A stretch of DNA of 29,490 nt from positions 1 through 29,490 of IMG/VR virus record IMGVR_UViG_3300028388_004755; one strand, 5' to 3'. The notes beneath the pieces are model-generated. The model was given only the letters and a program-made list of their open reading frames with translations. It was not told the DNA's origin and searched no databases. Position numbers and translations under genes: made by a program. Origin of the DNA: a virus. Positions 6,422 to 29,481 of the stretch are shown here, in pieces. The first letter of the stretch is position 1. Each line of letters begins with the position of its first letter.

Positions 6422-8223
6422 TAAGCGGCCTCAGCTAAAACATAGGAAGACGTGGGTGCGCGGTGTGAATTCAAACCTTCAGCAATCAGCGCGTGCATGA
6501 TCGCCCAGGCGGCATCGGCATGGCCGATGTTGTTGTCGCGTTTGGCAACGTAGGTGATGCCGTTGCCGGTACTGGCGCGTTGAATGGCCATAAAGGCCAG
6601 CGGAATGTCGGCGTGGCTGTCGGCCCACTCGATGCGTTGCCCGGTGATCACCTCCTGGCCCTTGAGCACCAGGCGGGTTTTCACATCCTGGGTGTAGTGC
6701 AGGTTCATCGCAGCCGGGTAGAACTCCAGCACCCGTTCAAACACGCCGTTACCCGGCCCGGTGGTATCGATGCCAATGTGCTGCACGGTGTAGCGTTCGG
6801 TAATGCGGCGGATCAGCTCGGCCTGGTAGACCCAGTTTTGGTTGTGCATCACATGCTTTTCGAGCAGCCGGAATTTGCCGCCAGGGTTCGTAGGTGGTGC
6901 CAGCACGACCACCACCGCGCTGTCGCGTGAACGGCTTGGATCGTACCCCACCCAAACGGCGCGATTGCCAAAGGGACGTACAGCCTCGGGGTTAAAATCG
7001 GGCCAGCGGGCATCGCTGACAGCGCAGGCCAGCAGGTCGTTCAGGTTAAAGGCGGAATTGGTGTCGTCGATGAACTCGCAGCCGTAGAGCTGGGCGAAGG
7101 TGTCCGGATCGTTTTCACGCTGCAGCTGGTCGAGGTCGAACAGATCGCAACCGCCGTCCATGGCATCGTGCAAGGTGATGACCTTGCGGTACATATCGTC
7201 AACGCCGGTCCAGCCTTTGCGCAGCTGCTTGCGCGTTGGCTCTTTAAAGGGCGTGAGTTCGGGGCGTTTTTCCTGAATCTTCCGGTACTGCTCACCGCTC
7301 CACAGCACATAGGCGTCGTGGCTTTTGGTGCTGGGCGTACTGAAATAGGTTTTGCGGTAATGCTTATGTGAGGCGATGGCGCCGGCGAGTTTTTCCAGCT
7401 TCTGGAAATCGCGGATCCAGAAACACTCATCCAGGTAGACATGGCCACTCGGTCCCTGGGCGGTATTGGAGTTGGTCGATAAGAAAAACAGCGTGGCGTC
7501 ACCAGCGTCGGTGCGCAGGGTGATTTTTTCACCGCCTTTCAGCTCCACTCCAAACCATTCTAGCGCGAAGCTCTGAATGTAGGTTTTGAACAGCAGCGCC
7601 TGGGCTTTACTGGCCGATAGAAACACCTGGTTCTGGCCGGTCATCAAGGCATCGGCAAAGGCTTCGCGGGCGCAATAGAAGGTCCAGCCGATCTGGCGGC
7701 TTTTCAGGTAAAAGCGTCGGCGCTTATGGCGCACCGCCCATTCGTTCAACTGGTAACTGAACAACCCTTCCCTGAATTTCGACTCCACCACCTCAGCCGT
7801 GATGCCGGTGAAATCGTTCTTGCCGCGTTTGCCTTTGCGCGCCTGGCGTTTGCCCTCGGCGATGCGCTGCGGATCTTGCGCCTGGTTTTCCATCACCTGG
7901 CTGGTGGCCTGGTTCAGCATGGCCACCGGTGCTTCGGTGGCAGGCTGAGTGCGCTCTATCTCTTTACGCCGGGTGGTCATCAACCGGTCGATAGCGTTGA
8001 GATCGGCGTCTGTTGGTTCGGCCTTTTCCAACAACAGCAACAGCCGTTTGTTGATGGCCTCCAACACCGAATCTTCCTTCACCAACGCATCCCAACCGAA
8101 ACGATCGATCCAGGCATAGAGCGTGCGCCGTGGCACACGGGTTTCGCGTTCGATGTCGGCAACCTTGGCGCGGCGCAAATAGAGGTTGCGGGCCAGGTGA
8201 ATGGTGGCGTCGGTGTATTTCAT
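6421..8223 (-). CDS. P: terminase large subunit, ATPase/nuclease (P2 gpP family)
   Basis: A 600-residue packaging motor protein. An N-terminal helix-turn-helix (ADIERETRVPRRTLYAWIDRF region, about 22-43) precedes the ATPase domain, with a deviant Walker A KSRQIGWT at about 174-181 and a Walker B VYLDE at about 262-266. The C-terminal nuclease has the acidic residues of VGYDPS (Asp428) and HIGIDTT (Asp486). P2 gpP works with gpM to cut DNA at cos and to pump it into the prohead. The start was placed at 8223 (MKYTD), because the 30 upstream in-frame codons run through a strongly symmetric operator-like element. The ribosome binding site there is weak. Confidence 0.95.
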   Translation of the reverse strand: MKYTDATIHLARNLYLRRAKVADIERETRVPRRTLYAWIDRFGWDALVKEDSVLEAINKRLLLLLEKAEPTDADLNAIDRLMTTRRKEIERTQPATEAPVAMLNQATSQVMENQAQDPQRIAEGKRQARKGKRGKNDFTGITAEVVESKFREGLFSYQLNEWAVRHKRRRFYLKSRQIGWTFYCAREAFADALMTGQNQVFLSASKAQALLFKTYIQSFALEWFGVELKGGEKITLRTDAGDATLFFLSTNSNTAQGPSGHVYLDECFWIRDFQKLEKLAGAIASHKHYRKTYFSTPSTKSHDAYVLWSGEQYRKIQEKRPELTPFKEPTRKQLRKGWTGVDDMYRKVITLHDAMDGGCDLFDLDQLQRENDPDTFAQLYGCEFIDDTNSAFNLNDLLACAVSDARWPDFNPEAVRPFGNRAVWVGYDPSRSRDSAVVVVLAPPTNPGGKFRLLEKHVMHNQNWVYQAELIRRITERYTVQHIGIDTTGPGNGVFERVLEFYPAAMNLHYTQDVKTRLVLKGQEVITGQRIEWADSHADIPLAFMAIQRASTGNGITYVAKRDNNIGHADAAWAIMHALIAEGLNSHRAPTSSYVLAEAA

Positions 8224-8266
8224 GGCCGGGAGTTTACCGGCGAGTTGGGGCTTCGGATCCGGGTTC

Positions 8267-8313
8267 TTGTTGTGGGCATTTGTGAAATCGCAATCCACAA
8301 AAAACCACAACAA
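8267..8313. promoter_or_regulatory. 47-bp dyad at the divergent late promoters, candidate Ogr box
   Basis: The arms are TTGTTGTGG (8267-8275) with TTTGTG (8279-8284), and the mirror CACAAA (8296-8301) with CCACAACAA (8305-8313), centred on 8290. It lies between the divergent P and O genes, 44 bp upstream of P and 77 bp upstream of O. The TTGTG half-sites repeat at 10 bp on each side, one helical turn. P2 Ogr sites are TGT-N12-ACA at about -55; the inner pair here is TGT-N13-ACA. The symmetry is certain from the sequence; the assignment to Ogr is inference. Confidence 0.65.
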
Positions 8314-8390
8314 AAACGCCTGGCGACGGCGTTGGCGCGGCGATTAAGGTGCGCTCATCAACGAACGACGACACCCATGAGACCAATTCG

Positions 8391-9242
8391 ATGCCAAAAC
8401 TGCTGACTCACTTCGTCACCATCGCCACCGCCGGTGCAACTCTCGATGGACGCGAAATTAAAGAGGAATGGCTGCAGCAGGTCGCCAAAAACTACGACCC
8501 GGACCTGTACACCGCCGTCATCAATTTTGAGCACATCCGCAACTTTGGAAATTTTGGAACGGTGCAGGCGGTTCGGTTGGGCCGAAGCAAAAGCGGCAAA
8601 ACCACGTTGGAAGCACAACTGGCCCCCAACCCGCGCATGATCGAGCTGAACAAGAGCGGCCAAAAACTGTTCACCAGCGCCGAAATTAAAATCAAGTTTG
8701 CCGACACCGGCGAGGCCTATTTGTTTGGCTTGGCGCTCACCGATTCACCCGCCAGCCTGGGCACCACCCTGATCGAACTCAGTGCACAAGAAACCAACCA
8801 CTGCTACAGCGAACCGCTGGAGCTGAATCTCGACGCGCCCGCTGACATCGAAGCCGAAGCGGGTATGAAAGCCCTGCTCTCCACCCTGACCCAACTGTTC
8901 CGCAAAGAGGCTCACAGCCCCGAGCCAGCACAGGATGAACACATGAATGATAAACAACTGAAACAACTGCTGGACGCCCAAAGCCAGCACTTCGCCACCC
9001 TCAATACGACCATTGCCGACGCCCTGGCCAAAGCCACGATGCCCAGCACCGAGACGACCGAACCGCCAGCGCCTGAAGGCGACGACACCAGTGGCGAAAC
9101 CTATGCCAGCCAGGCGTCCGTCGAGCAGTTGACCACCCAGGTCGAGCAACTGAGCGCCCAGCTGACTCAAGCCTTGGAAGGCAAGGTGACCACCCCCGTT
9201 CCGCCGCAAACCGGCAGCGAATCCGAACCCGCTTTCGTTTAA
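8391..9242 (+). CDS. O: capsid scaffolding protein / maturation protease (P2 gpO family)
   Basis: A 283-residue protein with an N-terminal serine-protease domain and a C-terminal scaffold, as in P2 gpO. Asp19 and His48 sit at the positions known for two of the P2 triad residues, and a serine in LTDSPASLGT (about Ser119) is the likely nucleophile. The C-terminal part is rich in Gln/Glu helices (QLKQLLDAQSQ, VEQLTTQVEQLSAQL), typical of scaffolds. It guides prohead assembly, then cleaves itself and other capsid proteins. The start at 8391 (MPKLLTHF) aligns the catalytic residues better than the GTG at 8349, but its ribosome binding site is weak. Confidence 0.92.
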   Translation: MPKLLTHFVTIATAGATLDGREIKEEWLQQVAKNYDPDLYTAVINFEHIRNFGNFGTVQAVRLGRSKSGKTTLEAQLAPNPRMIELNKSGQKLFTSAEIKIKFADTGEAYLFGLALTDSPASLGTTLIELSAQETNHCYSEPLELNLDAPADIEAEAGMKALLSTLTQLFRKEAHSPEPAQDEHMNDKQLKQLLDAQSQHFATLNTTIADALAKATMPSTETTEPPAPEGDDTSGETYASQASVEQLTTQVEQLSAQLTQALEGKVTTPVPPQTGSESEPAFV

Positions 9243-9287
9243 CACCTGGCCCATCACGGAATGGTCCAAACCCAGGGAAACCTTTAG

Positions 9288-10310
9288 ATGAAAAACATCA
9301 CCCGCGAAAAATACGCCCTCTTACTGGCCGCCATGGCCAGCAGCTACGGCGTCGCCGACCCGACCAAAAAATTCAGCGTGCAGATCCCCATCGAGACGGC
9401 GCTCAACGATGCTATTCAGGAATCGAGCGCCTTTTTAAGCCGCATCACCATGACCGGCGTCACCGACAGCGCTGGTCAGGCGTTGGAGATGGGCATTTCC
9501 GGCCTGCTAGCGAAGCGCACCAACGTCAGCAACAAAGATCGTCAGCCAAAAATGCTGGGCGGCCCGGATGGTTCCGAGTGGGCCACCAAGCTGACCGAAT
9601 TCGATGTCGGCATTCCTTACAACATTCTCGATGTCTGGGCGCGTTACCGCGACTTTGCTGCCCGCTACATGCGCCAGGTGTATCAGTCGATTGCGCTCGA
9701 CCGCATGACCGTCGGTTTCCACGGCCAAAGCGCCGCCGCTGAAACCGATGCCGACGCTAACCCGTTGGGCCAGGACGTGAACATCGGCTGGCTGAAAATT
9801 TTGGAAACGCAGAACCCTGGCCACTTTATGACAAGCGGTAAAACCGAAGGCGAAATCACCATCGGCAAGGCCGACGGTAACGACTACGCCAACCTGGATG
9901 CCTTTGTGTACGACCTCTATTCCGGCATTCCGGTGGAGCGCCGCAGTGGCTCAGAAGTGGTGATCGTCGGCCAGTCGCTGGTCTCCGATGATATGAATCG
10001 CATCATTTCCGACCACGCCACCACCCCGACTGAAAAGTCGGTGGGCATCATCGAGCTGTCGAAGAGTTACGGCGGCCTGCCGGCCATTCAGGTGCCACGC
10101 TTCCCCGACACCGGTGTGGTGGTCACCGACCTGAACAACCTGCACCTCTATTACCAGGAATCGGCCACCCGTCGGCACACCGACGAACAGCCACAGCGCA
10201 ACCGCGTGGTCGACTTCATCAGCAGCAACGACGCCTACGCCATTGGCGACGTGAAAGCCATGGTCGCGGCCAAGGCCGAGAACGTGAAGATTCGCCACGA
10301 AGCGGCCTAA
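9288..10310 (+). CDS. N: major capsid protein (P2 gpN family)
   Basis: A 340-residue protein of the P2 capsid family, with the N-terminal NITREKYALLLAAMASSYGV, the domain around GISGLLAKRTNVSNKDRQPK, and the C-terminal RRHTDEQPQRNRVVDFISSN. The HK97-fold shell is built from cleaved copies of this protein, with gpO as scaffold and protease. It follows O by 45 bp and is followed by a strong hairpin, which may stabilise the mRNA end of this highly expressed gene. The length fits the family (P2 N is 357). Confidence 0.95.
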   Translation: MKNITREKYALLLAAMASSYGVADPTKKFSVQIPIETALNDAIQESSAFLSRITMTGVTDSAGQALEMGISGLLAKRTNVSNKDRQPKMLGGPDGSEWATKLTEFDVGIPYNILDVWARYRDFAARYMRQVYQSIALDRMTVGFHGQSAAAETDADANPLGQDVNIGWLKILETQNPGHFMTSGKTEGEITIGKADGNDYANLDAFVYDLYSGIPVERRSGSEVVIVGQSLVSDDMNRIISDHATTPTEKSVGIIELSKSYGGLPAIQVPRFPDTGVVVTDLNNLHLYYQESATRRHTDEQPQRNRVVDFISSNDAYAIGDVKAMVAAKAENVKIRHEAA

Positions 10311-24871: not shown

Positions 24872-25666
24872 ATGACTAAACCCATCATTCCCTGGATGGG
24901 CGGCAAACGCCGCCTGGTCGACCGCATCCTGCCTTTCTTCCCACCCCATGAGTGCTACGTCGAACCCTTCGCAGGCGGTGCCGCGCTGTTTTTCATGCGG
25001 CCACAACCTGCCCAGGTGGAAGTACTCAACGACATCAATGGGGACCTGGTGAACCTGTACCGAGTGGTGCAGCACCACCTCGAAGAATTCGTGCGGCAAT
25101 TCAAATGGGCACTATCAAGCCGCCAGGTGTTCGAGTGGCAAAAGATGACCCGCCCGGAAACCCTAACCGACATCCAACGCGCTGCCAGGTTCTACTACCT
25201 GCAGCACCTGGCGTTCGGCGGCAAGGTATCCGGCCAATCGTTCGGCACAGCCACAACGGCACCGCCGGGCTTAAACCTACTGCGCATCGAGGAGCAGCTA
25301 TCGGCGGCACACTTGCGCCTAAGCCAGGTATACATCGAAAACCTGAGTTGGCAGGATGTCATCAAACGCTACGACCGCGAGCACAGCTTTTTCTACCTGG
25401 ATCCACCCTACTGGGAAACCGCAGGCTACGGTGTCGGCTTCGGCTGGGAGCAATACGAGGAAATGGCCGTGCTACTGGCTACCATCAAAGGCAAGGCCAT
25501 TGTGAGCCTGAACGACCACCCGGATGTGCGGCAGGTGTTTGGGCGGTTTCATATTGAGAGTACGGAGATACGGTATACAGTGGGTGGAGGGAAAAATAAT
25601 GTTGATCGTGGTGAAGTGCTGATTTTTAACTGGGATGTGGAAAATGATCCGTCGGGTTTGTTCTAA
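24872..25666 (+). CDS. D12-class adenine-N6 DNA methyltransferase
   Basis: A 264-residue Dam-type enzyme that transfers methyl from S-adenosylmethionine to adenine. It begins MTKPIIPWMGGKRRL, has motif I as PFAGGAAL at about 32-39 and the catalytic DPPY at 177-180. Dam members usually recognise GATC; the target here is not provable from sequence. It follows the spike gene after 11 bp and probably protects phage DNA or alters host or phage gene control. The last 120 bp have an AT-richer, different codon use from the rest, and the next gene begins inside it, suggesting a recombination junction. Confidence 0.92.
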   Translation: MTKPIIPWMGGKRRLVDRILPFFPPHECYVEPFAGGAALFFMRPQPAQVEVLNDINGDLVNLYRVVQHHLEEFVRQFKWALSSRQVFEWQKMTRPETLTDIQRAARFYYLQHLAFGGKVSGQSFGTATTAPPGLNLLRIEEQLSAAHLRLSQVYIENLSWQDVIKRYDREHSFFYLDPPYWETAGYGVGFGWEQYEEMAVLLATIKGKAIVSLNDHPDVRQVFGRFHIESTEIRYTVGGGKNNVDRGEVLIFNWDVENDPSGLF

Positions 25667-26387
25667 AGTTTGTGATTTCTTGGTTACCAATGGCGGGTAT
25701 TATCTAGTACTTGCCATTTTGTTTGTTGGAACGATGTTGGCTGCACCAATGCAAATGGATGCTGCCTTATTATTTAATATTGCCGAAGGTTTAGCACTAG
25801 TCACGATTGCATTAGTTGCACTAAGAACATGGAAAAAAACTGAGCACTGGAAAGTGAAGAAAGAAGCGTTTCTAATTCTTTATGAGTACGAAAACCAAAT
25901 CGATGATTCACAAGTCATCCTATCTGACATATATAGTAGAATTCAAGAGTTCACAGTTGATCTATTAATGCCTGAGGAATACACAGATTACAAAACCTAT
26001 GTAATCAACGAACTATCAGATATCGAAAATTCACTTAAAGAAAAAGTCGAAACAACTCCAAATCGTTTAACAAAAAACCTTAAAAGCTGCCTGAGTGCTA
26101 TCGACATAACTTGGGCAAATAAATTCACTAACGAAGTTCGCTATAAAATAATTTTGACTCTTCGAGATAGCGATAGTCGGCCATTTGGAGATTATTCAAA
26201 TATATCAATCAGGCATGAAATTTCGCAGTTAAAACTTATCAACGACCCTAAACCTATGGTTATAGATAGGTTAAAAAAATTGGCGAAGCATTTTAAACAA
26301 TATATAGAAAAAGCAGAAGAAGTTAAAAAATCAATTCCCTCAATTGCTAGAAGCATTGAAATTTCAATTTCAGAGATAGAGCGATGA
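25635..26387 (+). CDS. unknown two-TM membrane protein, paralogue 1
   Basis: A 250-residue protein that is not recognised. Two membrane segments lie at about 21-38 and 43-63, followed by the juxtamembrane motif RTWKKTEHWKVKKEAF (64-79) and a long cytoplasmic helical domain with SAIDITWANKFT at about 154-165 and a coiled C-terminus (KKLAKHFKQYIEKAEE). The same layout and motifs occur in the protein at 27198. The gene is much more AT-rich than the tail genes, a sign of transfer. ATG 25635 or 25644 could start it; both overlap dam by 20-30 bp. The position suggests a superinfection-exclusion or defence role, which is inference. Confidence 0.65.
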   Translation: MWKMIRRVCSKVCDFLVTNGGYYLVLAILFVGTMLAAPMQMDAALLFNIAEGLALVTIALVALRTWKKTEHWKVKKEAFLILYEYENQIDDSQVILSDIYSRIQEFTVDLLMPEEYTDYKTYVINELSDIENSLKEKVETTPNRLTKNLKSCLSAIDITWANKFTNEVRYKIILTLRDSDSRPFGDYSNISIRHEISQLKLINDPKPMVIDRLKKLAKHFKQYIEKAEEVKKSIPSIARSIEISISEIER

Positions 26388-26556: not shown

Positions 26557-26820
26557 ATGATGAAGCTGACGACCAAACTACGTAAATCCGGCAACGCGCA
26601 GGTCTTGCCGGTCCCCGCCGCTGCCCTGAAAGAACTAGGTGTCGAGCTTGGCACCGAGTTTTCCATGACCGTTGAGCATGGCCGCATCGAGTTAGTCCGC
26701 ACCCGTCAGCTCCCCAGCCGCGAAGACGTGTTGGCCGCCCTGGGCGATGCCGACCTAAGCATTCCCGACGACATCCGCGATTTTACCGATGCAGCACCAG
26801 TTGGACGGGAGATCCTCTAA
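26557..26820 (+). CDS. MazE-like AbrB-fold antitoxin
   Basis: An 87-residue protein whose N-terminal half is an AbrB/MazE swapped-hairpin domain (MKLTTKLRKSGNAQVLPVP, then LGVELGTEFSMTVEHGRIEL), with a C-terminal tail LPSREDVLAALGDADLSIP likely to wrap and inhibit the toxin. ATG 26557 was chosen over an upstream TTG because CGAGGG lies at about 8 bp and because the start then follows the operator. It ends directly before the toxin GTG. GC-rich codon use differs from the AT-rich genes on both sides, so the pair may have entered as its own unit. Confidence 0.85.
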   Translation: MMKLTTKLRKSGNAQVLPVPAAALKELGVELGTEFSMTVEHGRIELVRTRQLPSREDVLAALGDADLSIPDDIRDFTDAAPVGREIL

Positions 26821-27156
26821 GTGGCCTACATCCCACAACGCGGTGACATCATCGCCCTGGACTTCGATCCATCCGCAGGCAAGGAAATCCAAAAACGCAG
26901 GTCGGCTCTGGTGATCTCAGTCGACGCCATGAACCAACTGGGCCAAGCTTGTGTGATACCCATCACCAGTACCGAGAAAAAACCGGCCATCCTGCACCCA
27001 CAAGTGATGAGCTCATCCACCAGCGGTTACCTGGTCCCCACCCAACTGCGCACCCTCGACTGGCAAGCCCGCCGCGCCAGCCTCATCGAAAAAGCCCCGG
27101 CCGATCTGGTGGATGAATGTGCCAATTTATTGAAGCATTTATTGGGTATAGATTGA
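26821..27156 (+). CDS. MazF/PemK-like endoribonuclease toxin
   Basis: A 111-residue protein of the MazF family: PQRGDIIALDFDPSAGKEI, then RRSALVIS, CVIPITSTEK and a conserved LRTLDW. MazF toxins cut single-stranded RNA at short sequences and stop translation. The start is GTG immediately after the antitoxin stop, with GGGAG upstream, ensuring coupled synthesis. In a prophage the pair can stabilise the element or abort infection by other phages; which applies here is not shown. Confidence 0.9.
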   Translation: MAYIPQRGDIIALDFDPSAGKEIQKRRSALVISVDAMNQLGQACVIPITSTEKKPAILHPQVMSSSTSGYLVPTQLRTLDWQARRASLIEKAPADLVDECANLLKHLLGID

Positions 27157-27197: not shown

Positions 27198-27908
27198 ATG
27201 AAATATCTCGGTGCCACCACCCTGTTTCTGGTCGTACTCATACTGGGCATTCTTTACTTCTCAGAACCAGGCGTCAGCGGTCCCGAATTCTTCAATATGG
27301 TGACAGGTGCAGCGCTGGTTGTTGCGGCCTTCTACGCACACAGAACGTGGAGAAAAACAGAACACTGGAAGGTGAAAAAAGATGCTTTTTCTTACCTAAC
27401 CAAACAAGTCTCCAGGGTTAGAAAATTTGAAAAAGTACTTAGCCTTTGCGAATTGGATTTTAACGAATTTGGCTATTCGCCTAGAACCTCGTTATTAGAT
27501 AAGGGTGATAGCAGTAAGGAATACATATCACTAGTTAAGAGAACTGAAGGAAAAATCAGAAGCAAATTAGCAATAGTTGATATCGATGAGATTGTTAGCA
27601 CCTTGAATATCTACTTAATCAGCACCGATATAAAATGGGCAAGAGAGTATACCGGTAGAATATACGATCACATGGCTTCAATATTATCGGACGAAAGTGG
27701 GTTCGACAGTTTTTCTATACTACTTAACCATTTTGAAAATCAGTACAGATACGAAATGGCAGATGCTCTTATTGATGAATTCGCTATTGAAAACGCAAAA
27801 TTTATCGCCGATAAACTAGCCGAACTGCGACATAAGCTATCTGCTCTTGAATGGTATTTCGATAAAGTGATTGATGAGATTGAAGCTAAACTAGGCAGCT
27901 CTTTTTAA
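27198..27908 (+). CDS. unknown two-TM membrane protein, paralogue 2
   Basis: A 236-residue protein with membrane segments at about 5-20 and 33-47, then RTWRKTEHWKVKKDAF (49-64), nearly identical to the motif in the protein at 25635. Further on, STDIKWAREYT (142-152) matches SAIDITWANKFT in the first protein, and both end in long helices. The two are thus full-length but strongly diverged paralogues. The start at ATG 27198 has CAGGAAG upstream. Its first 200 bp are GC-richer than the rest, which is AT-rich. Together with the toxin-antitoxin between them, this suggests an accessory defence or exclusion locus; function is unknown. Confidence 0.7.
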   Translation: MKYLGATTLFLVVLILGILYFSEPGVSGPEFFNMVTGAALVVAAFYAHRTWRKTEHWKVKKDAFSYLTKQVSRVRKFEKVLSLCELDFNEFGYSPRTSLLDKGDSSKEYISLVKRTEGKIRSKLAIVDIDEIVSTLNIYLISTDIKWAREYTGRIYDHMASILSDESGFDSFSILLNHFENQYRYEMADALIDEFAIENAKFIADKLAELRHKLSALEWYFDKVIDEIEAKLGSSF

Positions 27909-27931: not shown

Positions 27932-28024
27932 CCCAGCCATACTACCCCAGGCCGTGCGGGCGCGCCTTCGAGACGAGTCGAACCGGCATCGCTTCTGCAT
28001 CCGGACGTTTCACCCGCACGGCTT
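27932..28024. ncRNA. structured element A (possible C4/CI-type antisense RNA)
   Basis: The long stem GCCGTGCGGG (27951-27960) pairs with CCCGCACGGC (28013-28022), extended by two more pairs. Within it are a hairpin TTCGA/TCGAA (27967-27982) and a CCGG/CCGG hairpin (27983-28004) whose loop holds GCTTCT. Upstream is CCCAGCCATACTA, identical in element B. The multibranch shape and phage location recall P1 C4 and P4 CI antisense immunity RNAs, but the family and even the transcribed strand are unproven. Confidence 0.4.
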
Positions 28025-28111
28025 ACCCTTACCCACCCTCTTTTTTAAAACCAAAAAACACAGCCCCAGCAACCTATTGTCTTTAACCCGCCACAGAGCT
28101 ATGGTGTCTAC

Positions 28112-28187
28112 GCGCTGGCAAAATCCAGCGCCGGGATTCGAACCCCGGATAACAAAGAGCGGCAAGACCGCCGCTGGCGGTTTTTTT
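28112..28187 (+). ncRNA. possible small RNA: two hairpins and terminator
   Basis: GCGCTGG/CCAGCGC (28112-28131) is followed at once by CCGGG/CCCGG (28131-28148), with loop ATTCGAAC, and then by an intrinsic terminator. This compact chain of about 76 nt looks like a terminated small RNA. No clear promoter is seen upstream, and it may simply be the end of a leftover transcript. Confidence 0.35.
28167..28187 (+). terminator. intrinsic terminator
   Basis: ACCGCC (28167-28172), loop GCT and GGCGGT (28176-28181) form a perfect stem followed by a run of seven T (28181-28187). An alternative hairpin AGCGGC/GCCGCT (28158-28175) overlaps it and could compete. It would end rightward transcripts from the moron genes. 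Confidence 0.75.
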
Positions 28188-28202
28188 GTGCCCAGCGGTT
28201 GG

Positions 28203-28292
28203 CCCAGCCATACTATGGCGGGCCGTGCGGGGCGCCTTAGGGCGCGCCGGTTTGCTTCTTTGTCCGGTAGTTCGAACCCGCACGGTTCCGCC
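28203..28292. ncRNA. structured element B, second copy of the RNA-like repeat
   Basis: It begins with CCCAGCCATACTA (28203-28215), then a long stem CCGTGCGGG (28223-28231) with CCCGCACGG (28277-28285), continued by GGCGG (28217-28221) with CCGCC (28288-28292). Inside are GCGCC/GGCGC (28232-28245) and CCGG/CCGG (28247-28267) with GCTTCT in the loop. The same architecture as element A is kept although one hairpin uses other bases, which favours selection on RNA structure. Confidence 0.42.
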
Positions 28293-28320
28293 ACCCCGAT
28301 TCGAACCGGGAACGGCGGAA
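28286..28320. other. tRNA-like minihelix hairpin
   Basis: TTCCGCC (28286-28292) pairs with GGCGGAA (28314-28320), a 7-bp stem, enclosing CCCG/CGGG around a TTCGAA loop. On the minus strand this looks like an acceptor stem joined to a T-arm. It ends 14 bp before the ribosome binding site of the next gene, and its left arm also takes part in the stem of element B. Confidence 0.4.
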
Positions 28321-28347
28321 TAAACCACCGACAAAAGGAGCACTACA

Positions 28348-28698
28348 ATGAGTGAGATCCGCCTCAACACTCAACAAGGTAAATGGCTGCAAGCTGGCCT
28401 GATGCTCGATGCCGTAGACGACAGCGGTAACAGCTACACCCTCTGCGAAATCAGCAACCTCGACCTTCCCTCCAACGCCGAAGAAGGCGCTAACCGCGCT
28501 GAGAGCATCCTGATGTTCTTAGAAGGCATCACCGGCGAGTTCAACAGCGACCTAATCCTCAGCACCAACGAATGGTCCGGCCTGTCGTTCCTGCTTGGCC
28601 ACTGCCGTGCCCTGGTTGGCATGACCAACGAGGAGAGCACCAAAGCCCGACATGTACTGAAGCTGATGGAAGAATTCGATCGGGAGGGCCAGGAATGA
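28348..28698 (+). CDS. hypothetical protein (116 aa)
   Basis: A 116-residue acidic protein, not recognised: MSEIRLNTQQGKWLQAGLML, a middle with NAEEGANRAESILMFLEGIT and a helical C-terminus (STKARHVLKLMEEFDREG). A strong AAAAGGAG lies 7 bp before the ATG. It overlaps the following Lar-like gene by 4 bp (ATGA), so the two are co-translated and possibly act together. Its codon use is like that of the phage core genes, unlike the AT-rich genes before it. No signal or membrane segment. Confidence 0.65.
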   Translation: MSEIRLNTQQGKWLQAGLMLDAVDDSGNSYTLCEISNLDLPSNAEEGANRAESILMFLEGITGEFNSDLILSTNEWSGLSFLLGHCRALVGMTNEESTKARHVLKLMEEFDREGQE

Positions 28699-28913
28699 AC
28701 CAGCAACGAATCCTGGAGCACTGCCCCATCTGTGACGGCAACCACCTGGTGGTCTACAAACGCCCATCCAGGCTGGCTGGCCAACTGATCACCGTCGAGT
28801 GCCGCAGCTGCCTATGCAGCGCCCCGATCGATCACTGGAACAACGGCAGACCAGCAGCGCCGCTGCAGCACACCCTACTGCCCCACCCTGGCCAACTGCG
28901 CCTGGCGCACTAA
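28695..28913 (+). CDS. Lar-like zinc-ribbon protein
   Basis: A 72-residue protein with two CxxC pairs (CPIC near residue 10, CRSC near 36) and IDHWNNGRP, the layout of the Lar restriction-alleviation family (CPFCG...C..C....W.N). Lar of the Rac prophage lowers type I restriction by enhancing modification; many phage relatives are unstudied. Here it pairs with the unknown gene before it through an ATGA overlap and is followed by a terminator. An adenine methyltransferase is encoded 3 kb upstream, so both could serve in avoiding restriction; this is inference. Confidence 0.7.
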   Translation: MNQQRILEHCPICDGNHLVVYKRPSRLAGQLITVECRSCLCSAPIDHWNNGRPAAPLQHTLLPHPGQLRLAH

Positions 28914-29393: not shown

Positions 29394-29481
29394 TGGTGCC
29401 CGGAGCCGGAATCGAACCGGCACGGCCGCAATGGCCGAGGGATTTTAAGTCCCTTGTGTCTACCAGTTTCACCATCCGGGC
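29394..29481 (-). tRNA. tRNA-Leu (anticodon UAA), CCA encoded
   Basis: The minus strand gives a complete tRNA-Leu: acceptor arms GCCCGGA and TCCGGGC with discriminator A and encoded CCA (29394-29396), D-arm region TGGTGAAACTGGTAGACAC, anticodon stem-loop around ACTTAAAAT (UAA), a long variable arm as in leucine tRNAs, and the T-arm GCCGGTTCGATTCCGGC. Its 3' end points to the phage, as when a tyrosine integrase uses a tRNA 3' end as attB. This is most likely a host gene restored by the prophage end. Confidence 0.95.

Follow-up and report, generated by a model that had tools for sequence, protein, structure and literature searches.

The stretch of DNA analysed here (the window) is a viral record of 29,490 bases that runs from a primase gene to a tRNA-Leu (TAA) gene on the minus strand (29394–29481), a probable attachment site. 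Because of these limits, the integrase and the repressor are out of view, and further targets of the antisense RNA described below may lie outside the window. Towards the tRNA gene, the plus strand carries, in order, a weak promoter, a target site (a1b1), a terminator, a C4-type RNA (element B, or C4-B), a second target site (a2b2) and a predicted gene, ORF1, while a relative of the C4-type RNA (element A) lies upstream. A separate feature of this end of the record is a toxin-antitoxin pair of MazE-like and MazF/PemK-like genes (26560–27156; PemK E 4e-21), flanked by two A+T-rich frames (25635–26387 and 27198–27908) with a similar start, in which a hydrophobic stretch is followed by RTW(R/K)KTEHWKVKK. 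The third-position GC of these frames is 0.30 and 0.39, respectively, whereas the structural genes have about 0.75, and they therefore look like foreign cargo.

Elements A (27932–28032) and B (28203–28298) are homologous. Their starts are 271 bp apart, and they share a 13-nt leader (CCCAGCCATACTA), the stem arms GGCCGTGCGGG and CCCGCACGG, and a hairpin of the form CCGG...GCTTCT...CCGG, as an earlier note on this DNA had described. The two are 86% identical over 29 nt and can be aligned from end to end; the local score is 54, compared with a maximum of 33 in 2000 dinucleotide shuffles of A (0 of 2000 as good); outside A and B, no local alignment to A in the window scores above 28. Both also contain an inner hairpin made of different bases (TTCGA/TCGAA in A, GCGCC/GGCGC in B), again in line with that description, and on the plus strand both fold better than shuffled sequences (z −2.9 for A and −3.6 for B, the latter with a fold energy of −50.1 kcal/mol). 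The earlier note had overlooked that the lower P1 stem of B, GGCGG/CCGCC, is lost from A, which does not have a full P1, and that an isrK/c4-a1b1 element lies between the copies. It had also pointed to the string RTARHSMAGP, which can indeed be read from element B in an ORF on the minus strand (28083–28370); since its codons simply lie opposite the C4 leader and P1 stem, the string does not speak for a protein.

Element B is a C4 antisense RNA. It matches the Rfam C4 family (RF01695) at 28211–28298 on the plus strand with 72 bits, well over the cut-off of 45 (E 2e-12), contains the three stems P1, P2 and P3, and has the AUGG start and the subsequent ACCC of the family. The P3 loop b' (UUUGCUUCUUUGU) lies at 28251–28263 and the arm a' (UAGUUCGAACCC) at 28268–28279, both on the plus strand. 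Covariation, which had been suggested as a check, was seen in part: among 24 relatives of B, paired changes occur in P2 and in lower P1, while P3 was too poorly aligned in this set to be assessed. A broader C4 alignment misaligned P2 and P3, and hence no second C4 model was built from it. Together with the standard isrK-terminator-C4-gene layout, the score of B supports the central part of the earlier proposal, namely that a P2-like phage carries an immunity RNA of the same kind as P1 C4. In general terms, the CI RNA of P4 follows the same logic, a P2/P4-type element using an antisense RNA for immunity.

The Rfam scan that had been proposed returned, besides the C4 match at B, an isrK match (RF01394) between A and B, at 28112–28187 on the plus strand, with 75.8 bits against a cut-off of 50 (E 9e-15). 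An intrinsic terminator (28165–28187, plus strand) closes this leader. A possible promoter, TTGTCT-17-TATGGT (28077–28105, plus strand), was found by eye and has 8 of 12 consensus bases, which would put the transcription start near 28112; it scores too low for the promoter scan, which reported none. The first C4 target, c4-a1b1 (28099–28158, plus strand), is matched by RF03163 at 28099–28151 with 40.0 bits (E 6e-7), just short of the cut-off of 46.7 and in the expected place. Its a1 part is the loop ATTCGAAC (28136–28143), and its b1 part is ACAAAGA (28152–28158), both on the plus strand. The second target, a2b2 (28299–28341, plus strand), is predicted from sequence and pairing energy: its a2 loop (28299–28306) has the same 8 nt as a1, and b2 (ACAAAAGGAGC, 28331–28341) includes AAGGAG, the Shine-Dalgarno sequence of ORF1.

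Predicted pairing of C4-B with these sites is favorable for three of the four halves. The arm pairs with a1 at −13.4 kcal/mol, and the P3 loop with b1 at −10.7 kcal/mol and with b2, in the Shine-Dalgarno region of ORF1, at −11.0 kcal/mol; only 2, 4 and 5 of 3000 random windows, respectively, were as good or better. Pairing of the arm with a2 is weak alone (−8.2 kcal/mol; 178 of 3000 random windows as good), and the contact between the P3 loop and the Shine-Dalgarno region has five uninterrupted Watson-Crick pairs, becoming longer only with a G-U pair. Among bipartite sites for C4-B in the window, a1b1 ranks first once the complement of C4-B itself is set aside, with another site close behind, and a2b2 falls outside the top twelve. 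C4-B thus has a target upstream and one over a ribosome-binding site, the arm-a2 half of the latter being weak. When the whole leader is folded, a1b1 lies on C4-B in cis, and so the precursor may be inactive until cut.

Across loci, these contacts change together. The a1 loop co-varies with the C4 arm (17 distinct combinations, mean run 6.8 nt versus 3.0) and b1 with the P3 loop (40 combinations, 7.0 versus 3.5), and on the downstream side the arm co-varies with a2 (7.0 versus 4.1) and the P3 loop with the Shine-Dalgarno region (8.1 versus 4.3), both in 66 distinct units; each of the four results was matched by 0 of 1000 shuffles, although these tests overstate independence because many units are related. 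The changes are nevertheless found among distinct sequences, in the target as well as in the C4, and these patterns agree with the roles described for the parts of P1 C4 (PMC5320573).

The gene behind a2b2, ORF1 (28348–28698, plus strand, 116 amino acids), has a third-position GC of 0.72, like the structural genes of the phage, and its ribosome-binding site is predicted to be covered by C4-B. No relative of ORF1 was found in Pfam, PHROGs or NCBIfam, or in viral, genome, phage and plasmid collections and 369 Gammaproteobacteria genomes (searched without a positive control), and nothing therefore links it to phage immunity; a structure model from the single sequence (pLDDT 57) was too poor to read. 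The start of ORF2 (28695–28913, plus strand, 72 amino acids) overlaps the ORF1 stop. ORF2 is weakly similar to Lar, a restriction alleviation protein, with matches to PHROG 599 (E 0.002, no curated cut-off), Pfam Lar (E 0.036) and TIGR03655 (E 0.047). Since the Pfam and NCBIfam scores are below their curated cut-offs, a role of ORF2 in escaping restriction is only a suggestion. Because the P3 loop would cover AAGGAG of ORF1 and corresponding matches are found family-wide, C4-B most likely represses ORF1 and ORF2 as a two-gene operon.

Taken together, we hypothesize that C4-B is an antisense switch that keeps ORF1-ORF2 off in the lysogen, which is the best explanation of the whole locus, with a probability of about 0.8. 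The hypothesis draws on the assignment of B and isrK to their families, the order of the parts, the pairings predicted by sequence and energy, and the covariation in the family. Transcription would start near 28112, and the isrK terminator would halt most transcripts. Read-through RNA would be cut, as in phage P1, where C4 is freed by RNase P, its b' loop masks the ribosome-binding site, and its a' part provides specificity (PMC5320573). The C4-B set free in this way would bind loop a2 with its arm and b2 with its P3 loop, masking the Shine-Dalgarno sequence and so preventing translation of both ORF1 and the ORF2 coupled to it. The upstream a1b1 would be a second copy of the target that might restrain C4 in cis or serve as a decoy, given that it folds onto C4-B in the intact leader. 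In a newly entered cell that lacks C4 RNA, the operon would be expressed until C4 accumulates.

This arrangement is similar to the C4 of P1 and P7 (RF01695), which likewise has three stems, an arm and a P3 loop complementary to the target, with the loop placed over the ribosome-binding site, and is encoded upstream of the gene that it controls. In contrast to P1 and P7, the genes apparently controlled in the window are an orphan ORF and a weakly Lar-like ORF, with no recognisable antirepressor, and an extra, diverged C4 copy lies upstream.

The isrK-orf45-anrP region of the Salmonella prophage Gifsy-1 (RF01394) is comparable as well, having an isrK leader with terminator, a C4 and a controlled gene; however, the downstream gene is unrelated to ORF1. 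In the Gifsy-1 sequence (L327), isrK is at 34240–34316 and C4 at 34131–34214 on the minus strand, followed by a gene annotated at 33513–34076. IsrK of Gifsy-1 was published as a trans-activator of orf45-anrP, with the first AUG of orf45 at 107 and the stop of orf45 overlapping the start of anrP (PMC4825925); the term C4 RNA is absent from the text of that paper. By its numbering, the Gifsy-1 C4 match would overlap orf45, that is, the C4 part appears to have been treated as orf45. In a rival view, the isrK leader rather than C4 might be the main regulator in the window and switch on translation of the following gene in trans, in the way reported for Gifsy-1. The two loci are built alike, the Gifsy-1 C4 match lies between isrK and the anrP-type gene, where orf45 has been placed, and the isrK part of the window folds onto C4-B in cis. 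Nevertheless, the Shine-Dalgarno region covaries with the C4 loop, and we regard an isrK-led mechanism as unlikely. The two views are also compatible, because isrK could titrate C4 or open its precursor.

The order of target, terminator, C4 and gene recurs in Gifsy-1, in phages Tyrion and ZX5, in Uetakevirus and in dozens of viral contigs. A viral contig with a C4 unit (L330) additionally has a match to the Type II hammerhead ribozyme on its minus strand (7644–7710; 65.6 bits against a cut-off of 37). In Uetakevirus phages the C4 unit stands before an antirepressor, and in the other C4 units the next gene is mostly antirepressor-like, as judged by reading of the sequences and, in three cases, by annotation. 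In several units, however, the next gene is small and of unknown family, and in Trabulsiella it is near the derepression protein family PF25738 (E 2e-5, below the cut-off of that family). Control of an antirepressor, as in P1, is a habit of the C4 family that stands outside Rfam's definition, and because some units precede other small genes, the gene predicted to be under C4 control need not be a recognisable antirepressor. Among 50 records of phages related by their methyltransferase, two contain a C4, in neither case near the methyltransferase stretch.

Several C4 RNAs may also stand side by side. A relaxed C4 grammar was unspecific, giving 431 matches in a 3.5 Mb control, and tandem cases were therefore kept only if confirmed by Rfam. 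On the reverse strand of contig L196 (6497–7000), two orphan C4s (65.7 and 64.6 bits, above the Rfam cut-off) lie directly upstream of a complete cognate unit. In contig L127 (reverse strand, 6530–9900), isrK-C4-gene units follow one another four times in tandem at a spacing of about 854 bp; their antirepressor-like genes are related, and the target and loop sequences differ. Four tandem units, 354–598 bp apart, are also present in L600 (G312:C9; 1610–3150); their arms are different, their downstream frames are very short or run-on, and a P4-type primase-like gene follows downstream. Two C4-gene units were found in L099. A similar situation is known from the Group 1 sRNAs of Acinetobacter baumannii, where a single genome encodes numerous C4-type RNAs whose loops differ; these were found to be expressed and processed by RNA-seq (PMC5320573), whereas the phage pair described here is known from sequence.

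How, then, is element A to be understood? It can be laid out as a C4-like RNA (plus strand) by homology to B, by our own C4 model and by its fold, with the leader at 27932–27944, P1 at 27950–27960 with 28013–28021, P2 at 27967–27982, P3 at 27983–28004 and the arm at 28005–28015. The score of A with the C4 model built in this analysis, 18.7 bits, is partly by construction because the model loci were picked for the P1 stem type of A. We consider it a second C4 copy, diverged and orphaned, that lies upstream of the unit and is perhaps a relic. The reading that we slightly favor is a decayed duplicate, idle today, whose target has gone along with some of the structure. The Rfam C4 model gives no match to A up to E 10 even with lax filters, the lower P1 stem is gone, and the P3 loop is partly closed on itself in the predicted fold. 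No cognate target was found in the window, where two patterns and pairing scans returned only unrelated sites, and two patterns run against viral contigs found nothing target-like; searches for closer relatives by arm or loop gave chance matches only. The best fit of A to any of 72 known targets spans 12 nt and includes bulges; second-best matches of other C4s are at least as good. On the other hand, the P1 core and P3 stems of A and B are unchanged at 28 of 28 columns, whereas 24 of 51 columns differ elsewhere (Fisher p 2e-6, post hoc), and A still has a short P1 followed by ACCC.

Alternatively, A may be a working second C4 of other specificity, directed against a different phage or plasmid (heterotypic immunity) within a small C4 array, and we see this as a possibility of clearly lower standing. 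C4 arrays do exist; the two L196 orphans are placed directly upstream of a cognate unit like A in the window, and one of them matches the target of another phage, L130, about as well as C4-B matches its own (7 + 7 nt). The differing arms of the four L600 units and the antirepressor-like genes of the four in L127 fit as well. However, no target for A turned up in the collections searched, and A, known from a single sequence, is a poorer C4 than any member of the L196, L600 and L127 groups. It would be more speculative still to generalize that phages and satellites build C4 arrays of one cognate RNA plus orphans against the leaders of other phages, with A as a working orphan. By far the least probable is the earlier suggestion that one copy is the regulator and the other its target. 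The leader and stems are common to both, but GCTTCT has the same sense in A and B, so that A cannot pair with B at the loop, and better targets lie elsewhere, namely a1b1 (28136–28158) and a2b2 (28299–28341).

If the C4-B antisense switch operates as proposed, a full C4 switch adjoins the probable attachment site of a P2-like prophage and stands before genes that are not recognisable as antirepressors. C4 might accordingly be a portable means of silencing genes that are required only when the phage enters a new cell. The comparison of loci also shows that the isrK and C4 families are two parts of one leader, in Gifsy-1 as in the window, and that tandem C4s with differing loops occur in several phages.
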